64,000 nucleotides of DNA from Candidatus Amulumruptor caecigallinarius (GTDB taxonomy: Bacteria > Bacteroidota > Bacteroidia > Bacteroidales > Muribaculaceae), in contig CALUMU010000004.1 in the NCBI GenBank assembly GCA_944321825.1, positions 62,001 through 126,000 on the forward strand, given 5' to 3'. The position numbers were made by a program, and so were the translations under genes. Each line of letters begins with the position of its first letter. Position 1 is the first letter of the stretch. The notes beneath the pieces are model-generated. The model was given only the letters and a program-made list of their open reading frames with translations. It had not been told where the DNA came from and did no database searches. Shown here piece by piece: positions 25,508 to 63,431 of this stretch.

Positions 25508-26389
25508 ATGGCGATGATAAAAATAGGTGATTATAATACGCTGGCGGTGAAGAAATTGGTGGATTTCGGGGCGTATCTTGACGGCGGAGAGGCCGGGGAG
25601 ATACTGCTGCCGGCACGGTATATAGAGACTCCGTTGCGTCCGGGTGACGAGTTGGAGGTGTTTATCTACACTGACAGCGAGGACCGGTTGATTGCTACCA
25701 CGGAGCATCCGCTGGCTCGCGTGGGAGAGTTTGCATACCTTCAGGTCGTGGCGGTCAACCGTATAGGGGCGTTCCTTGACTGGGGATTGCCTAAGAATCT
25801 GCTCGTCCCTTTCAGAGAACAGAAACAGACCATGCGCGAGGGTTGCCAGTATCTTGTATATGTGTACCTTGACGATGCATCAAAGCGTGTGGCAGCCTCG
25901 GCAAAGATTGACAAGTTTCTTGGAAATGTAATCCCCGATTATGCCATAAATGCCGAGGTCGATGCGCTTGTCATAGCCCACGAGGAGCCGGGCTACAGAG
26001 TGATAGTGGACAACCTGCACCGAGGCATCATATACGACAATGAGATATATGCTCCTTTGGAGATAGGTACTACTATCCGGGCGCGTGTCAAGCAGGTGCG
26101 CCGCGATGGCAAGATAGACCTGACGCTCAATGAGAAAATCGGTGAGCGTATCATGCCTGTGGGCGACCGCATCCTCGAACTCATCCATGATTCTGCCGAC
26201 CATGTGCTGATGCTCCATGACCACTCGTCGCCCGAGGAAATCAAGGCGCGCCTCCATTGCAGCAAGAAGGACTTCAAACGAGCCGTAGGCCAGCTTTACA
26301 AAGCCCGCAGGATAGTCATACTCCCTGACGACGGAGGCCTGACCTATCCTAATGGAACGATGGGTTTGTTATTTTTTCAAATGTGGTGA
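25508..26389 (+). CDS. CvfB-like S1-domain RNA-binding protein
   Basis: 293 residues from the ATG at 25508 (MAMIKIGDYNTLAV); the in-frame start at 25463 overlaps the promoter area and is rejected. Several S1-like beta modules (GAYLDGGEAGEILLP, GAFLDWGLPKNLLVP, RARVKQVRRDGKIDLTL) are followed by a winged-helix-like tail (LHCSKKDFKRAVGQLYK) and VILPDDGGL, as in CvfB/YitL. Probably a translation or RNA regulator. The last 41 nt overlap the convergent McrC-like gene, and the final residues (…MGLLFFQMW) look atypical, so the accessory island may have replaced its original 3' end. Confidence 0.88.
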   Translation: MAMIKIGDYNTLAVKKLVDFGAYLDGGEAGEILLPARYIETPLRPGDELEVFIYTDSEDRLIATTEHPLARVGEFAYLQVVAVNRIGAFLDWGLPKNLLVPFREQKQTMREGCQYLVYVYLDDASKRVAASAKIDKFLGNVIPDYAINAEVDALVIAHEEPGYRVIVDNLHRGIIYDNEIYAPLEIGTTIRARVKQVRRDGKIDLTLNEKIGERIMPVGDRILELIHDSADHVLMLHDHSSPEEIKARLHCSKKDFKRAVGQLYKARRIVILPDDGGLTYPNGTMGLLFFQMW

Positions 26390-28670
26390 AGTAGGGCGTA
26401 AATTGTTGTAACCCTCTGCGTTCCAGTGTATATGAGGAAATATCTATCTCTGTCATAGGGCTCAAGCTCTTGATTTCAAATCCGAGGAAATAATCGCCTG
26501 TCGGTTCAAAACCCATTTCTTCCAATGCTTTCCTCGGATAGAATTTGGGCCCGTCACCTTTCAGACGTAAAAGCATACGCTCTGAACCATGGTGGAGCAA
26601 CAGGTATTTGGTCCGTTCAAAACCGCTGACAAGATTTATTGAACCCTTGTCAAGAGCCGTGGGGACATAGTATAACTTATTCTCTATGATTAAAGGAAGT
26701 TGCCCGGTCTTGTAATAGCCTACGAGTACAAGGTCGTTTTCGACAGGTTCAAAAGTGCTTTCATATTGCAGCCCTTTCTGCGGTATGGCATCTTTGATAT
26801 GGTCATAGGCCTGCTCTGTGGCGAGTATTTTCGTGAGAAATTCGTGCAGTAGCGTTCCCTCGTTGCGAGGGTCGCTTGCATCTGGCAGCAAAGGGAACGC
26901 GCCGATGTTGACCGACTCAATACTTTGATAGAAGTAGCGATTTCTCACCGAGTCGTTGTTGCCGCGACCTGGAAAAAGGATATATCCGCCGATGATTTCT
27001 TTAGCGGTATGAGCGGTTTGGTTGCCATCGTAGTAAATCGCATCGCGGTAGCGGTGCATCTGATTTATGGCATCGGATGGTGGGGAGTCGGCTCCTTTTG
27101 CTGCGTCAAGCTCCTCTCGGTCTTCTTGATTGAGACGGCTATCGTCATTAAGACGATATTTGGCATCAAAAAGGTAGGTCAACTCAAACCCGTCAGGTTT
27201 GACAATCGTAAGCACGATGTCGGGGCGGTTTTCGGTTGTGGCTGTATGTATTTCGCCTGTCCGGCGGCTGTAAGTGTGCTGATAGTGCAGACGTACTTTT
27301 GAGCCGTCGGCGCAATGGTAGAATACCGTATGCTCTTGGTTGTTGTCCTCAAATGGTTTTACCATTGGCATCGGTTCTTCAGTGATTTCGTCAGGATTAT
27401 CAAAATGTAAATCAAGAATATTCGCCACCATCTGACGCATTTTGAGGAAGCACCAGAGTTCGTAAAGCTCCCATATAGGTCGGACTCCGATGGCGTTTGT
27501 TCCCTCAAATAGCTCGATGCCCTTTTGGAGGATAAGCCAATGGCGATACACCTGAGCATACCCTGTGCGCTTTTGCAGCACCATGCTCTCAGAGTGAAGC
27601 GGCTCGCCTTGAAGCCCACGGAGCAATGGAGAGTTACCGAGTTTGCGCAGGGTCAATACATGGCCGTCCAATTCGGCAAGTTCCGAATCGGCCACTTTGT
27701 CGACCTCTTTGGCTTTGGCGTTCTTCTCCTTGATTTTGGCTACAATGTTGATGAGGCGGCGACCTATGCGGTCAAGGGTAAACTTGATAAATCGGTTCTC
27801 GCGTGTATTGTGGGTGTTGATGGTGATTTCGTGCCGGAAATATTCACGGTCTAACCTCCCATCGGCTTTGACGGCTGCAAAATTTTCTGTCATACGTGGA
27901 GTCCAACGCTTGATGCGGTTGGCGCGGTCGTATCTTACCTCGGTTGTCTGACGCAAGTGTGGCCGGTTGACTATGTAGGTTACAGCCTTAACGTAATCAG
28001 CCACTATCTGGCGGAATATCGAAAGCCAGACTATATCGTTGTTGGAGCGGCCGCCGCGTTGCAGGTTTTGCAACGTGAGGGTGAGGTATTGGAATATTAT
28101 CTCGTTGTACTGCGCATTGATTTCGGCGAGGATGTGGTTATAATCTTCCTTTGTATCAAGCTTGGGCGAAACGACGCGAAATGAAAAAGTGTCGGTACGG
28201 GGTGCGCCTTCGGTGGGCGTGTATCTGAACGTCAGCTCAAAGATGCCCGGCTCGTTGACAAACGAAAGGGGCGCGGTAATCAGCCAACGGTTACCGCTCT
28301 TATCCAATGGGATGGTGGTGAAAAGCTCAGTAACCTCTTTGAGCTTGTGGAGAATAATCGGTGGTGCGGCAACGCCGTCAAATTCAATACTGACGTTGTA
28401 TGTCGCTGTTTCGTAGAATACCGGCGGCAATCTATGCCATAAATTTGCGTTTGGTGCGCCGACTTCTTCAAGAGTCCATGTCCCTGGCAGCATCAGCCGG
28501 AGTGTGCCGGGCAATGTGCTCCGATAGTCGCAGTAAGTCATTGCCGCATCGGGATGTTCGGCATTGTTGACGCGGCTCTTGAACCGCACCCAGTTAGCCG
28601 ACATATCGGCGGCAGTTGTCGCGGTTATCTTGACCTTATCGTCGGTACTTATGAAATTTAGAATTTCCAA
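26349..28670 (-). CDS. McrC-like restriction subunit (DUF2357, PD-(D/E)XK nuclease)
   Basis: 773 residues. The N-terminal ~170 residues are beta-rich. A DUF2357-type middle follows, with the typical VRPIWELYELWCFLKM (about 396-411). A PD-(D/E)XK nuclease core comes next: RPDIV (482-486), LTYLFDAKYR (498-506) with Asp502 and Lys504, and NQMHRYRDAI (536-545). A ~190-residue C-terminal extension of unknown role ends the protein. DUF2357 proteins are McrC-like nuclease partners of McrB-type ATPases. It lies 7 nt downstream of such a gene, and the two are preceded by a C5-methyltransferase. It is much longer than E. coli McrC (about 350 residues), so it is a divergent branch. Likely role: DNA cleavage in restriction or phage defence. 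Confidence 0.85.
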   Translation of the reverse strand: MEILNFISTDDKVKITATTAADMSANWVRFKSRVNNAEHPDAAMTYCDYRSTLPGTLRLMLPGTWTLEEVGAPNANLWHRLPPVFYETATYNVSIEFDGVAAPPIILHKLKEVTELFTTIPLDKSGNRWLITAPLSFVNEPGIFELTFRYTPTEGAPRTDTFSFRVVSPKLDTKEDYNHILAEINAQYNEIIFQYLTLTLQNLQRGGRSNNDIVWLSIFRQIVADYVKAVTYIVNRPHLRQTTEVRYDRANRIKRWTPRMTENFAAVKADGRLDREYFRHEITINTHNTRENRFIKFTLDRIGRRLINIVAKIKEKNAKAKEVDKVADSELAELDGHVLTLRKLGNSPLLRGLQGEPLHSESMVLQKRTGYAQVYRHWLILQKGIELFEGTNAIGVRPIWELYELWCFLKMRQMVANILDLHFDNPDEITEEPMPMVKPFEDNNQEHTVFYHCADGSKVRLHYQHTYSRRTGEIHTATTENRPDIVLTIVKPDGFELTYLFDAKYRLNDDSRLNQEDREELDAAKGADSPPSDAINQMHRYRDAIYYDGNQTAHTAKEIIGGYILFPGRGNNDSVRNRYFYQSIESVNIGAFPLLPDASDPRNEGTLLHEFLTKILATEQAYDHIKDAIPQKGLQYESTFEPVENDLVLVGYYKTGQLPLIIENKLYYVPTALDKGSINLVSGFERTKYLLLHHGSERMLLRLKGDGPKFYPRKALEEMGFEPTGDYFLGFEIKSLSPMTEIDISSYTLERRGLQQFTPYFTTFEKITNPSFH

Positions 28671-28677
28671 TTTCTAA

Positions 28678-30255
28678 TTATGGCCAGTAGCTTGTGAATT
28701 GGGATCGGTTGAGTCGTCTTTGCATCTCCTCTACCTTAGCTAAAGCTTTAGGGTAGGATGCGCAGAGATTTTTGAGACGTTCGAGGGGCTTCTCAAGCAA
28801 TGTCTCATCACCCTCCACACGAGGTAAAACTTTCATCATAAGGATTCTGTCGACCGACTCTCTGAGAATTTTTGCCCAATCTTCCTCCTTATTTTCTCTC
28901 CAAAATTCGTAGAAGTAAAGAATCAACTCGTTTTGAACGCGATAAGCTATCTTGAAGGGCGTATCTTCAAGAGCCGCATTGAGGTCGGTAAGAATCCGTG
29001 ACACCTCCTTTTTTAGCCAGTCGGTCTTTTCTGCATTATCCTCCGCGAGTTCGGTCACCGCATCGGCAGCTTTGACGATGGTAGGGAGGAAAAGGTCGGA
29101 TGATAAAGGGGTGTCGGTATATTCAAGATCTCGCGCATTGTCAAAGAACTCCATAAACGGTTCACCATCAGGCAGGTTCATCTCGATGGTCATTGCGCGG
29201 TCAATTACCTTTCGCGAGAATTGGTGGGTGGTTTCGTCCATATTGACCGTGCCGATTACGATAAGGTTGGATGGTATGCGTAACCCTTCTTTGCGTAAAC
29301 GGTCGTAGACCGCGTTTTCGCTGCCGTAATATTGGTCAGGGTCTGATGTCGCATCACCTATCGCGTCTGTCTCTTTTAACTTGATGCCGAATAAATCCTC
29401 CTTAAGTTGGCGTTCGTATTTTGCGTTAGAAAATATCTCTTTAGGTATAAGTGGTTCGCTCGTAATCCTGCCGTCAACCACCTTGCGGCTTTCAAGTACG
29501 CTGAGAAATTCGGCAAAGTATTGCTCCACGGGAGCGAGGTTCATCTCATCGAGGCACACGAAAAATGGCACACGCTGGTCTTCATACAGCATTGCCTTTG
29601 CGAGGAAACGGATGAAAGGCGTGACTACGTAGTGTGCGCCGTTGATTTGGCTTTCGTACCCCATCAACTCCGAGCTGTCGTGCCAGTTTGGTTTAACCTC
29701 TATGAGACAATAATTGCCCGGAGTAGTAGCGTCCTCGCGCAGTCGGCTTTTGTCAGGACAGCTGTCAAAAGCCATCTGCTTTACGATGCGGCTCTTGCCC
29801 GTACCCGATATACCAGCCAAAAGTAAAAAAGGCTTCGTGCGCATCGCCCTATAGTAATCTTTATGTCTTTCATTATCAGGTAATTTGATTTCTTTTTCCT
29901 TGCCTATGATTTTATCTATGTACGCGACAATATCATCATTGGAAGCGAGACGGTGTCCGTTGAAATCAAACAATATGTGGTCACCATTTTCGTCCGTGAG
30001 AACGAGATATTGATTGTTATAGTTAAGACACATTGTTGTCCATTGCTTGATGCAATCTTCAAGGGATGCGTCTTGTTCCTCAACTGAAGTATATAAAAAC
30101 TGAGCCTTAGGCCATGATTTGCTTGGTCTGTTGGTTAATTGAGCTGTAAACAGCCCTTTCGGAGGGATGACACCGTATGTGTGCAAATAAGTAGCACCGC
30201 CATCTAATTGATTTAAATTTTCCGAAAGATAGTTTAATAAAGATTTTTCATCCAT
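28678..30255 (-). CDS. McrB-like AAA+ ATPase/GTPase
   Basis: 525 residues. The N-terminal ~130 residues are probably a recognition or modified-DNA/effector domain of unassigned type. The AAA+ motor has Walker A GISGTGKS (148-155), Walker B FFVCLDEMN (231-239), and the McrB-type sensor TVNMDETTHQFSRKVIDRA (336-354). DEMNLAPVEQYFAEFLS and NMDETT are hallmark McrB features. It should power translocation and activate the downstream McrC-like nuclease. Its ATG overlaps the end of the methyltransferase gene by 22 nt, so the three genes are one unit. Confidence 0.9.
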   Translation of the reverse strand: MDEKSLLNYLSENLNQLDGGATYLHTYGVIPPKGLFTAQLTNRPSKSWPKAQFLYTSVEEQDASLEDCIKQWTTMCLNYNNQYLVLTDENGDHILFDFNGHRLASNDDIVAYIDKIIGKEKEIKLPDNERHKDYYRAMRTKPFLLLAGISGTGKSRIVKQMAFDSCPDKSRLREDATTPGNYCLIEVKPNWHDSSELMGYESQINGAHYVVTPFIRFLAKAMLYEDQRVPFFVCLDEMNLAPVEQYFAEFLSVLESRKVVDGRITSEPLIPKEIFSNAKYERQLKEDLFGIKLKETDAIGDATSDPDQYYGSENAVYDRLRKEGLRIPSNLIVIGTVNMDETTHQFSRKVIDRAMTIEMNLPDGEPFMEFFDNARDLEYTDTPLSSDLFLPTIVKAADAVTELAEDNAEKTDWLKKEVSRILTDLNAALEDTPFKIAYRVQNELILYFYEFWRENKEEDWAKILRESVDRILMMKVLPRVEGDETLLEKPLERLKNLCASYPKALAKVEEMQRRLNRSQFTSYWP

Positions 30256-31220
30256 GATTCAAGGTGTTCTTTTGATAAAGGGTAGGGAGAGGAAGCACCA
30301 ATGGGAAATCCCATGAGATACTCACCATTTAATGGGTCGGGTTTGCCAAATACCTTAACAAAGTTTTGACATGAAGAGTGTTTCATCATAGAGGCACAAT
30401 GATAGTTGGCCATGGTAGTAGGCGTATGTACACCGCCAATCTCGCTAAACTCTGTCTGAATCCATGTCTTATGATGAGTGAATACTTCGTCAAGCTCTGG
30501 ACGTGTAACGACAATGGAGGAATAGTCGTTACGTAATTGCCTATTGACCAATATACGAAATGCACAAGCACAAACCAGTGGGGATTGGGCATTTCCGATT
30601 CCCCTTAGTTGGTTTCTTTTTATATCAACTTTATTGGGATAGACAATTTTGTTGGCATCTAACGTCCAGCATTTTGCTTGAATTTTGCCAAGTTTTTTAA
30701 TATGTCTGACAATTTTAGAAAATACTTTGTCATCCTTTACTGCCAAAAGCCAGAAGCGGTTTCTTTGGTGGTCAGCTCCGAGGTCTTTGCATGATAAACG
30801 GCATATTGAAACTCTATATCCAATTTTTTCTAAATCGGATTTAGCTGTTGTGATAGCACGTAACACCACATTCTCGCCAAAAACAATCGGAGCATTTGAT
30901 TCCTTGATGAACCGATACATATAGTCCCAAAGGTTTTTTTCTGCGATATTCTTACCATGAGCTGCGGTACTAAAAGCTTGACAGGGAAAGCCTCCGCAAA
31001 GTATATCAAATGATTTTTTGAATTTTTTACCATTAAGTTTGGTTACATCAGGGTAAATCTCAAAAGATTCTAACCAACCATCTTTTTGGCGTTGTATGAG
31101 AACATTTGTTGCATAAGGGTCAATTTCAACGCCTCCGCAACATGTATGACCCAATATTTTTCCGCCATATATGCCACCGCCTATTCCGGCAAAGAGATGA
31201 AATTCCTTAATTTTTGGCAT
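30234..31220 (-). CDS. DNA C5-cytosine methyltransferase
   Basis: 328 residues. Motif I FHLFAGIGGG (8-16), motif IV GGFPCQAFS with catalytic Cys80, motif VI GENVVLRA (115-122), motif VIII HQRNRFWLLA (151-160) and motifs IX/X RNQLRGIGNAQSP (202-214) are all present. The gap between motifs VIII and IX is only ~45 residues, too short for a normal target-recognition domain. About 100 residues follow motif X and include LNGEYLMGFPIG, as in phage-type enzymes, so recognition may lie at the C-terminus. The gene is clearly richer in A+T than its surroundings. It probably protects the host from the coupled McrBC-like nuclease. Confidence 0.92.
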   Translation of the reverse strand: MPKIKEFHLFAGIGGGIYGGKILGHTCCGGVEIDPYATNVLIQRQKDGWLESFEIYPDVTKLNGKKFKKSFDILCGGFPCQAFSTAAHGKNIAEKNLWDYMYRFIKESNAPIVFGENVVLRAITTAKSDLEKIGYRVSICRLSCKDLGADHQRNRFWLLAVKDDKVFSKIVRHIKKLGKIQAKCWTLDANKIVYPNKVDIKRNQLRGIGNAQSPLVCACAFRILVNRQLRNDYSSIVVTRPELDEVFTHHKTWIQTEFSEIGGVHTPTTMANYHCASMMKHSSCQNFVKVFGKPDPLNGEYLMGFPIGASSPYPLSKEHLESWMKNLY

Positions 31221-31309
31221 GGTCGTTTTTTATGATTGATTACGGGTGATTAATATTTGGATATAATGATGCTATACATACCGCCTTTGAGAGCGATATT
31301 GTTAAGATA

Positions 31310-31317
31310 CAAAGGTA
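31310..31317 (-). promoter_or_regulatory. Candidate -7 box for the methyltransferase-McrBC-like operon
   Basis: Minus-strand TACCTTTG fits TAnnTTTG and lies 90 nt upstream of the methyltransferase ATG; no TTG is found at 19-21 nt. A second such box (TACCTTTG at 31403-31396) sits inside the repeated element further upstream. Confidence 0.35.
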
Positions 31318-31380
31318 ACAAAAATAATTGGGATATGGGGGGTGGAGAGGAAGACCCGATAATAGGGAGGAGTGCCGCCG

Positions 31381-31446
31381 ATGTTTCTTGTATGGCAAAG
31401 GTAATAATATTGATGGGCAGTTTGGTAGCCCTTGTGTGTTAAAACT
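31381..31446. repeat. Imperfect ~65-bp repeat, copy A
   Basis: Shared blocks with copy B (32618-32682), in the same order and orientation: ATGTTTCT, GGCAAAG-TAATA, T-GATGGG, AGC-CTT and TGTGTTAAA. Both copies contain a minus-strand TAnnTTTG box. It lies just downstream of the PemK-like gene and about 160-225 nt upstream of the methyltransferase start. Confidence 0.6.
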
Positions 31447-31473
31447 GGTTGCAATAGCGTTGCTTGGCGGATT

Positions 31474-31926
31474 TTATAACCCGTATTGGGCGAGATGCTC
31501 CGGACTTTCTCGCGGACTCTCTCTAACCGTTCCGATTATCAGTTCTATGTCGTAATCGTCAATCTCTCCAAGATAATTCCATTCGTTGAATTTATTGGGA
31601 TACACTCGTTTGAGTTGAATGCAGTCGACAAAAGAATCGTAACGAAGAAATGGATACTTGGCTCGTTTGATGGGCATATGGTACATTTTGATATGTCCGG
31701 GCAGATTCTTGTTTATCTGCGAGTTGACTATAACACCGCCATAAGCAATCCCATCAGCATCAAATCCAAGCACGACAAAATATTTGTCGCGTGAAGTATC
31801 GCCTGGCTTAGGCTTAATGCCGTTGGCTGCGGTCATAGTTATCGCATATACATCTCCGACTTTTACGGTGTGGTATGCCAATCGGAAAAGTTCATCTTCA
31901 TTGAGCGCATCGGCAATCTTCATCAT
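31474..31926 (-). CDS. Putative PemK-like toxin partner of a Panacea module
   Basis: 150 residues, not a known enzyme by clear motif. The segment VGDVYAITMTAANG...KYFVVLGFDADGIAYGGVIVNSQIN resembles the beta-barrel opening of MazF/PemK-like proteins (VxxGDVY..., KxRxxVVL..., GGVIVNS). Its ATG overlaps the stop of the Panacea-domain gene (31923-31926), as expected for a toxin translated behind its antitoxin. No RNase activity can be confirmed from sequence; it may also be a non-toxic member of the fold. Confidence 0.55.
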   Translation of the reverse strand: MMKIADALNEDELFRLAYHTVKVGDVYAITMTAANGIKPKPGDTSRDKYFVVLGFDADGIAYGGVIVNSQINKNLPGHIKMYHMPIKRAKYPFLRYDSFVDCIQLKRVYPNKFNEWNYLGEIDDYDIELIIGTVRESPRESPEHLAQYGL

Positions 31927-32474
31927 CCGAGGGCTGATTCAATTTGCATTTGCTCTTTAATATACTCAAGCATTGCAGCGTCGGCATTAAGCACCTTCGC
32001 CATTGAAATCGGAGATATGATGTTTGTGCCATCAACCCGGCGGTTTGCTTCATCCCATGCCCTATCGTGCGACTTGCGCATGAGCTGTCCGAAAGTCAGG
32101 GATTCGTTCTCCTCAATGGAACTATCCAATGCGTCAATCTCAGATTTTGACAAGAAGCGCAAATTAGCCTCTCTTTTGGGGAGAAGGATATTGGGAGCAT
32201 CCTCCCCTGCGAAGCGGACGGCCTCAGCCAAATCAGTCGAAAGCTCCATTCTGGGCTTATTGAGTTCCTTGACGGCATTGTACAAGCGAGTAGGGACTGG
32301 CCCGTATGGCAATGCGCAAAATTTGTCGGGTACAATGCCGCAGCCCCATTTAGCGAGATGCTTCATCTCCGCGAAATAGAGAATCTTGAAAGCATGGTAG
32401 AAGTCTACGCCTCCGGTTTTTCCAAGAATATACAGAACCAACTCTGTGAGTTTTTTGCTGTCAAAATCCGTCAT
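31923..32474 (-). CDS. Panacea (SocA-like/DUF4065) domain antitoxin
   Basis: 183 residues. The N-terminal part (LTELVLYILGKTGGVDFYHAFKILYFAEMKHLAKWG, with FCALPYGPVPTRLYNAVKEL after it) matches the Panacea domain found in SocA/GepA-like proteins, which serve as exchangeable antitoxin modules next to many unrelated toxins. The C-terminal half is helical and charged. It is the first gene of a two-gene unit, overlaps the PemK-like gene by 4 nt, and is set between two copies of an imperfect repeat. Role by family: neutralises the neighbouring toxin, often as part of phage defence. Confidence 0.8.
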   Translation of the reverse strand: MTDFDSKKLTELVLYILGKTGGVDFYHAFKILYFAEMKHLAKWGCGIVPDKFCALPYGPVPTRLYNAVKELNKPRMELSTDLAEAVRFAGEDAPNILLPKREANLRFLSKSEIDALDSSIEENESLTFGQLMRKSHDRAWDEANRRVDGTNIISPISMAKVLNADAAMLEYIKEQMQIESALG

Positions 32475-32533: not shown

Positions 32534-32541
32534 CAAATATA
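32534..32541 (-). promoter_or_regulatory. Candidate -7 box for the Panacea/PemK-like operon
   Basis: Minus-strand TATATTTG is a perfect TAnnTTTG box 60 nt upstream of the Panacea ATG. No TTG is found at the standard 19-21 nt spacing. Confidence 0.4.
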
Positions 32542-32617
32542 GCAATAATTTCCTGACAAATAAAATCGGCTGGAAATCAGGGTCGATATTGGGAAGGGTA
32601 TGCCGATTTTGTCGGCT

Positions 32618-32682
32618 ATGTTTCTACAGAGGCAAAGTTAATATCATCGATGGGTGGGTTTACAGCTCTTATGTGTTAAAGT
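32618..32682. repeat. Imperfect ~65-bp repeat, copy B
   Basis: The partner of copy A (31381-31446); see the shared blocks there. It lies about 145-210 nt upstream of the Panacea ATG and just beyond the gluQ stop. The two copies bracket the toxin-antitoxin pair as direct repeats about 1.24 kb apart. Confidence 0.6.
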
Positions 32683-61946: not shown

Positions 61947-63431
61947 TTATTGGAACGCTTTGACCAATGCGTCGTACATCAGACGGCCTTCGAGACGGTA
62001 GCCTTTGGCGCTGTGGTGGATGCGGTCGGGGCTGAAAAGCCCGTTTTTAATCCATGTCGCTGCTGCCCCGGAGCCGCCGGATACTTCCCAGAAGTCATAT
62101 ACGGGTATGCCGTTTTCGGCACCGTAAGCGACTATGGCATCGCGGATAGGACGGATGTTGGTATTCACTCCCGAAGAGCGGACTTTGGTTTTGACGGTAC
62201 GGTAGCGTGTCACTCTTCTTTTTCTGCCTTTGCGCCTTTTTGATCTGACAGGGACTTTTTTTGTGACTGTTTTGGTCGTGGAGCGGTAACATTCCATCGG
62301 GGTCACAAGCAATATTTCTGCAGCGGGGTTGGCATCACGGATGTCTTTGACAAGTTTGTCGACGCTGTTGCGTAGACGGGCGGTGTCAAGGCGGCCGAAA
62401 GCCTCGTTGGTACCCAACGACAGGATTACAAGATTGGGGTTAAGCGGCTTGATGGATGCGCCTATGTCGCCGATGCGGTTATATGTATCGTATGTCGCAC
62501 CGTTGTTTCCTATCGAATGATAGAAAACACCAGGCCTTCCTCCCGACAGACTCGCTCCGAAAAGGGTAAGGTCGCCGAGGTTTTCGTAACTTATGGTCAC
62601 ACGGGTATTTGGAGAGGCGAGTTTAAGGAATGTGAAGTCGCGTGAAGGATGCTGGGTATAGGCGACTTTGTTGCCTAATTCGTCCGTGACCCCGGAGATG
62701 ACCATTTTGCCTTTATGAAACAGGATTATGGAGTTGAAGGGGTTATAGTCTTCTTCCGTGCGGGTGCCGATGGTGATGTTGCTCAGGGATGTCGAAGGAG
62801 TAATGGAGGTGCCGGTAAAGCCCATGGTACGTTTCCATGGAGCTTTCATCAGCTTTACTGCGGTATAAGGGAGTGAGGAGGAGAAAGTATAGTCATAAGG
62901 TTGGTTGGTGCCGCTCATGCGCAGAGGGGATATGATGCCTCGTCCGGCGTTGCCGTATCGGTATTGCAGCAGTTCGCGTGTAACGCCGGTACCCATGTTG
63001 GCCTGGATGTGGCTGTCGCCTATGATGAGGATTGAGAGCGGGCGTATCTTGTGGGCATTGACTGCCTGGCGAAGGTTGGACCAGTCGGCGCCATTGAGAT
63101 TGATGGTGTTGGCTTCCTGATTGATGAATGAGGGTATGGGGATATCTATGTCGCTGTCATCGGGTGCTATGATGACTTCGTTTTCCCGTTCGGCAGAGTT
63201 GTCATCTTCGGATACCTCCTCTGTCGTGGTTTCGTGCGGTGCGGCGGCATTGCTGTCCTCCTCTTCGTCTGATTCGGAGACTTCGCTTGTTTCTTCCTGG
63301 TCGGGGTTGTCAACTGGATTTTCAGGGATGATGACTGGAGGAGCCGGATTGGTCTGGCTCGCAGCAACCGGGCTGAGGGACAACGACAGCACTGCGGCTA
63401 ATATAAGGGAGGTGCGTGATGTATTGGTCAT
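61947..63431 (-). CDS. Secreted SGNH/GDSL hydrolase with acidic linker
   Basis: 494 residues. Signal peptide, then a long Glu/Asp/Ser/Pro-rich low-complexity linker (about 28-100). The SGNH domain has block I IIGDSHIQA (Ser nucleophile), the Gly block in NLGDLTLFGASL, LSLGTNEA with the Asn block, and DRIHHSAKGYRLEG with the Asp-His pair. A basic loop KKVPVRSKRRKGRKRRV interrupts the domain. Probably the acetyl carrier or esterase that works with the neighbouring MBOAT protein. Confidence 0.88.
   Translation of the reverse strand: MTNTSRTSLILAAVLSLSLSPVAASQTNPAPPVIIPENPVDNPDQEETSEVSESDEEEDSNAAAPHETTTEEVSEDDNSAERENEVIIAPDDSDIDIPIPSFINQEANTINLNGADWSNLRQAVNAHKIRPLSILIIGDSHIQANMGTGVTRELLQYRYGNAGRGIISPLRMSGTNQPYDYTFSSSLPYTAVKLMKAPWKRTMGFTGTSITPSTSLSNITIGTRTEEDYNPFNSIILFHKGKMVISGVTDELGNKVAYTQHPSRDFTFLKLASPNTRVTISYENLGDLTLFGASLSGGRPGVFYHSIGNNGATYDTYNRIGDIGASIKPLNPNLVILSLGTNEAFGRLDTARLRNSVDKLVKDIRDANPAAEILLVTPMECYRSTTKTVTKKVPVRSKRRKGRKRRVTRYRTVKTKVRSSGVNTNIRPIRDAIVAYGAENGIPVYDFWEVSGGSGAAATWIKNGLFSPDRIHHSAKGYRLEGRLMYDALVKAFQ

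Follow-up and report, generated by a model that had tools for sequence, protein, structure and literature searches.

The PanAT toxin–antitoxin systems were defined by Kurata et al. (2022), who noted PemK among the toxins and also found two MazF/PemK-like PanTs, from Pseudomonas moraviensis and Bifidobacterium ruminantium, that are missed by CDD (PMC8832971). Both of these proteins are toxic in E. coli, inhibit protein synthesis and are neutralised by their own PanA, and the P. moraviensis PanT co-purified with its antitoxin (PMC8832971). Here we analyse a two-gene locus in a stretch of 64,000 nucleotides from Candidatus Amulumruptor caecigallinarius (Muribaculaceae; positions 62,001 to 126,000 of contig CALUMU010000004.1), hereafter the window. 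Taken together, the evidence described below makes it very likely that the locus is a type II PanAT module, in which the antitoxin PanA binds and blocks PanT, a diverged MazF-fold putative endoribonuclease.

Both genes lie on the minus strand, with panA first and panT downstream. The former (31923..32474, minus strand) encodes a Panacea (SocA-like, DUF4065) antitoxin of 183 residues, assigned by its PF13274 match and an AlphaFold2 model, and the latter (31474..31926, minus strand) a putative MazF/PemK-fold endoribonuclease toxin of 150 residues, assigned by a profile match to MazF and a structure model. As had been described previously, the two reading frames share 4 nt (31923..31926, minus strand), read from the sequence as an ATGA in which the stop codon of panA overlaps the start codon of panT, an arrangement from which we infer translational coupling. 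A genome-wide count returned this single Panacea gene, and no PF02452 PemK protein was found in the source genome.

The antitoxin assignment made in the earlier note stands: PanA matches PF13274 with an E-value of 8.3e-21 (75.5 bits versus a cut-off of 25.7), and consists of a stand-alone Panacea domain (residues 29–140) followed by a C-terminal helical extension. The AlphaFold2 model (pLDDT 94.1, pTM 0.91) is confident up to the C-terminus and shows no long disordered tail. Comparison of this model with the PDB gave no match at E<=0.001, and the best hits, to chains of the M. tuberculosis DarTG complex, are weak at E 0.11. Where a Panacea antitoxin stands alone, it is the Panacea domain itself that neutralises the toxin (PMC10440598), so direct blocking of PanT is the likeliest mode of neutralisation for PanA.

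PanT is far more elusive at the sequence level. The single sequence has no match in Pfam, NCBIfam, PADLOC or PHROGs, in agreement with the earlier view that it is not a standard family member, and a search of the PDB with it retrieves only noise, so that a family profile is required. Even then the cut-off of PF02452 (PemK_toxin) is not reached, as the window protein has no match and the best among 22 relatives attains an E-value of 0.04. The family profile, in turn, retrieves S. aureus MazF from the PDB (E 0.0055), in a match that covers most of the length and runs colinearly from the first strand almost as far as the C-terminal helix. Set against PemK proteins of the class in a profile–profile comparison, the family scored 85%, a result that is weak alone, with the C-terminal half in register. 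To model the protein, AlphaFold2 was supplied with 29 family members only and no templates, and it produced a model with a pLDDT of 83.8 and a pTM of 0.76. Among the Foldseek matches listed for this model in the PDB, 30 have E<=0.001 and all of these are of the MazF/Kid type (best E 5e-5). The viral matches are PemK-like proteins and endoribonucleases. The profile match and the model thus agree with the MazF/PemK-like barrel proposed in the earlier note, and the structure prediction put forward there as a check, in which a missing barrel was to count against the proposal, has been run and contains the barrel. As modelled, PanT has the MazF/Kid/CcdB barrel fold and is best described as a diverged MazF-fold protein, to which the name PemK-like applies as far as the predicted fold is concerned.

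Since CcdB shares the MazF fold, PanT could in principle be a CcdB-like gyrase poison, and CcdB chains do match the model in VIA with Z-scores of 10.5 and 10.0. These come next after MazF, however, which is the best match there (Z 12.4, 3.5 Å over 109 residues), and MazF chains also stand above CcdB in Foldseek. Moreover, the family sequence profile, when run against the PDB, retrieves MazF and not CcdB, and the MazF-like PanTs studied before blocked protein synthesis (PMC8832971). We therefore regard a gyrase poison as highly improbable and retain the MazF-type assignment.

The oddity of the family lies in its putative active site. Bacillus MazF requires Arg25 and Thr48 (PMC7354611). In the profile alignment the catalytic arginine is absent from the PanT family and Lys48 takes its place, a lysine being present in every family sequence with a readable residue at this position. 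The third strand ends with an invariant N68 and an almost invariant S69 (S/T). In the model, the ends of the strands would make this pair a possible counterpart of the catalytic threonine, which the profile aligns about four residues further on. These replacements could indicate a catalytically dead MazF-fold protein, such as an RNA-binding regulator. We consider this improbable, as the replacements are invariant rather than decayed and have precedents in M. tuberculosis, where MazF4 has a lysine at the arginine position and MazF7 a serine at the threonine position (PMC7354611). By analogy with these two enzymes, we think that PanT is a putative active variant of the MazF enzymes and not a dead one.

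To place the pair in its wider context, we turned to its relatives. PanT relatives occur in 17 of 198 Muribaculaceae genomes, the source genome included, and, across the phylum, in 12 of 395 genomes. When 84,980 species genomes were scanned, 36 loci emerged, and the viral contigs added one more, for a total of 37; the single PanT protein, used alone, found no match in the viral contigs. Outside these genome collections, relatives include two P. gingivalis phages, in which the protein is annotated as 'MazF-like' (a literature search found no paper on this annotation), as well as five Bacteroidales records that are classed as plasmids. One of the latter (L021) carries feoB and tilS, and its plasmid label may therefore be wrong. 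Another copy of the pair (L054, 5115–6070) comes from a bin that bears the name of the Firmicute Merdimonas, and may reflect either transfer or mis-binning. Overall, the family occurs almost entirely in Bacteroidales.

The two genes behave as a unit throughout this range. In the first set of relatives a Panacea relative lies immediately 5' of every PanT relative, and in all 37 loci from the genome and viral collections one is found directly upstream. The loci with this pairing include one in a P. gingivalis phage and others in the Bacteroidales plasmid records. For the 34 pairs in which the start of each gene could be located, the junction measures between -4 and +3 nt in 32 cases, mostly -1 or -4. 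Compared with orthologues of 72–81% identity, panT diverges by 0.50–0.62 at third codon positions and by 0.09–0.23 at the first two, and both panA and panT are under purifying selection. The distances of toxin and antitoxin correlate over all 28 pairs: among the 17 distant pairs the Spearman coefficient is 0.82 (permutation p 0.0005), and among the 9 close pairs it is 0.37 and not significant (p 0.12). Kinship of the host lineages could account for part of this correlation. Of the dozen relatives closest to the pair, two (L044 and L045) have a frameshifted toxin alongside an intact Panacea gene. A toxin would be expected to decay in this direction, with an assembly error being possible as well.

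From the antitoxin side the pairing is not absolute. Among 29 further Panacea loci examined in Muribaculaceae, 16 carry a toxin of the PanT family. In one locus (L170, 1369–2906), a Panacea protein 76% identical to PanA of the window is encoded 8 nt behind a gene for an XRE-M78 (IrrE-like) peptidase, and no PanT relative is found next to it or elsewhere in that genome; we read this case as either an exchange of partner or an orphan antitoxin. A further locus (L153, 744–2376) has a 323-residue Panacea protein encoded downstream of a DUF6169 gene and is possibly a different PanAT pair.

Downstream of panAT, on the same strand and 253 nt away, lies a methylation-linked McrBC-like operon (26349–31220), which bears out the restriction–modification-like neighbourhood reported in the earlier note. 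All on the minus strand, it comprises a C5 cytosine methylase (PF00145, 30234–31220), a McrB-like AAA protein (PADLOC PDC-M26A, E 4.5e-40, 28678–30255) and a McrC-like nuclease with DUF2357 and PDDEXK_7 domains (26349–28670). The suggestion had been that the pair acts as an abortive-infection back-up for this operon. In such a scheme, the toxin would be set free when a phage attacks or the operon is lost, and the infected cell would die. The shared strand, the short distance and a common low-GC stretch are in keeping with such a role, and some Panacea systems have been reported in the literature to defend against phage. However, not one of the 37 related loci has a gene for the methylase, the McrB-like or the McrC-like protein in flanks of up to 8 kb (shorter on small contigs), and panAT appears to have a conserved promoter of its own. 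The link between panAT and the operon is therefore judged to be local and looks like a coincidence of gene order, and the proposed back-up function, which we now hold to be quite unlikely, is not upheld.

That probable promoter is a Bacteroidota-type -7 element, TATATTTG (32534..32541, minus strand), assigned by its conservation in close relatives. The element and the leader downstream of it are kept in most of them and the sequence further upstream is not; the pair thus appears to travel with its own promoter. The pair and its promoter are bracketed by an imperfect direct repeat of 71 nt (31373–31443 and 32610–32680; 72% identity), which has no further copies elsewhere in the source genome and may be a trace of the arrival of the pair upstream of the restriction operon. 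Each copy has a minus-strand TAnnTTTG element; the repeat was considered as the panAT promoter, but this was rejected because the promoter conserved in relatives is a different one, immediately in front of panA. The GC content falls to 39% at 30500–31500, a segment that holds the start of the methylase gene and the end of the toxin gene, compared with about 52% on both sides, suggesting a recent acquisition. An empty site was sought by way of the gluQRS gene in seven relatives; none retains the other neighbours found in the window, and the boundary of the insertion was not located.

These features bear on what benefit the pair provides. It may serve mobile DNA, such as prophages and islands, as an addiction or stabilisation module and have no role in defence; this reading concerns the benefit and is compatible with the PanAT mechanism. 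The patchy distribution within both the family and the phylum favours it, as do the low GC content at the window locus and one copy of the pair that lies terminally in a P. gingivalis prophage, close to the lysis genes and an integrase. We see it as a serious possibility, if somewhat short of an even chance. A more elaborate scenario would make these proteins a Bacteroidota branch of the MazF fold whose Lys/Asn-Ser site confers a different chemistry or target, for instance particular tRNAs, and whose Panacea protein senses phage, the pair having recently been placed upstream of the McrBC-like operon so that both answer the same invader; this we deem unlikely.

The type II PanAT reading rests directly on the gene pair, which is conserved and inherited together, on the Panacea domain and on the MazF fold of the model. 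It implies that a promoter of their own would drive joint transcription of panA and panT, whose translation would be coupled, antitoxin first. PanT would most likely dimerise and cleave single-stranded RNA, thereby stopping translation and making the protein toxic, and PanA would bind it directly and block it. Loss of PanA, or a change in its state, would then act as the trigger that releases the toxin.

The locus adds to the list of Panacea partners a diverged MazF-fold family that has no name in Pfam or NCBIfam, and the alignment and model of PanT suffice to annotate dozens of 'hypothetical proteins' of gut bacteria. Through its Lys/Asn-Ser site, mutation can test directly to what extent the MazF active site is required, and the L170 locus provides a natural example of the loss or exchange of a partner.

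Among the known systems, PanT resembles MazF, PemK and Kid (PF02452) in its predicted fold and in the order of its strands; its family profile matches S. aureus MazF colinearly, and within its YDSF motif the Asp-Ser is aligned with the DS of MazF. It differs from them in the missing significant match to PF02452, in the lysine found in place of the catalytic arginine and the Asn-Ser near the catalytic threonine, and in an N-terminal extension of about 20 residues; unlike the MazF mRNA interferases proper, its partner is a Panacea protein and not MazE. With SocAB of Caulobacter the locus has in common the Panacea domain of PanA and SocA; however, the match of PanA to the SocA equivalog model is partial (27 bits versus a cut-off of 190), and PanT is here predicted to have the MazF fold. 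Because the PF02452 score is below the cut-off and the catalytic arginine is absent, we file the locus as a PanAT with a MazF-fold toxin rather than as a curated PemK member. The closest counterparts are the PanAT pairs of P. moraviensis and B. ruminantium, in which a Panacea antitoxin likewise adjoins a toxin missed by curated models in a conserved two-gene locus. Their PanTs are of the MazF/PemK/EndoA fold and are likened to the window protein by fold and locus, not by toxin sequence; they have been characterised experimentally, whereas the Bacteroidales pair is known here from sequence and model. The Bacteroidales family may already be among the clusters of Kurata et al. (2022). The earlier note had raised the prospect of an undescribed type of toxin, but MazF/PemK-like toxins that escape CDD and are neutralised by Panacea proteins have already been found and tested (PMC8832971). 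The window pair therefore belongs to a known kind: the pairing of a Panacea antitoxin with a MazF-like toxin is already established, and this locus is a further member.
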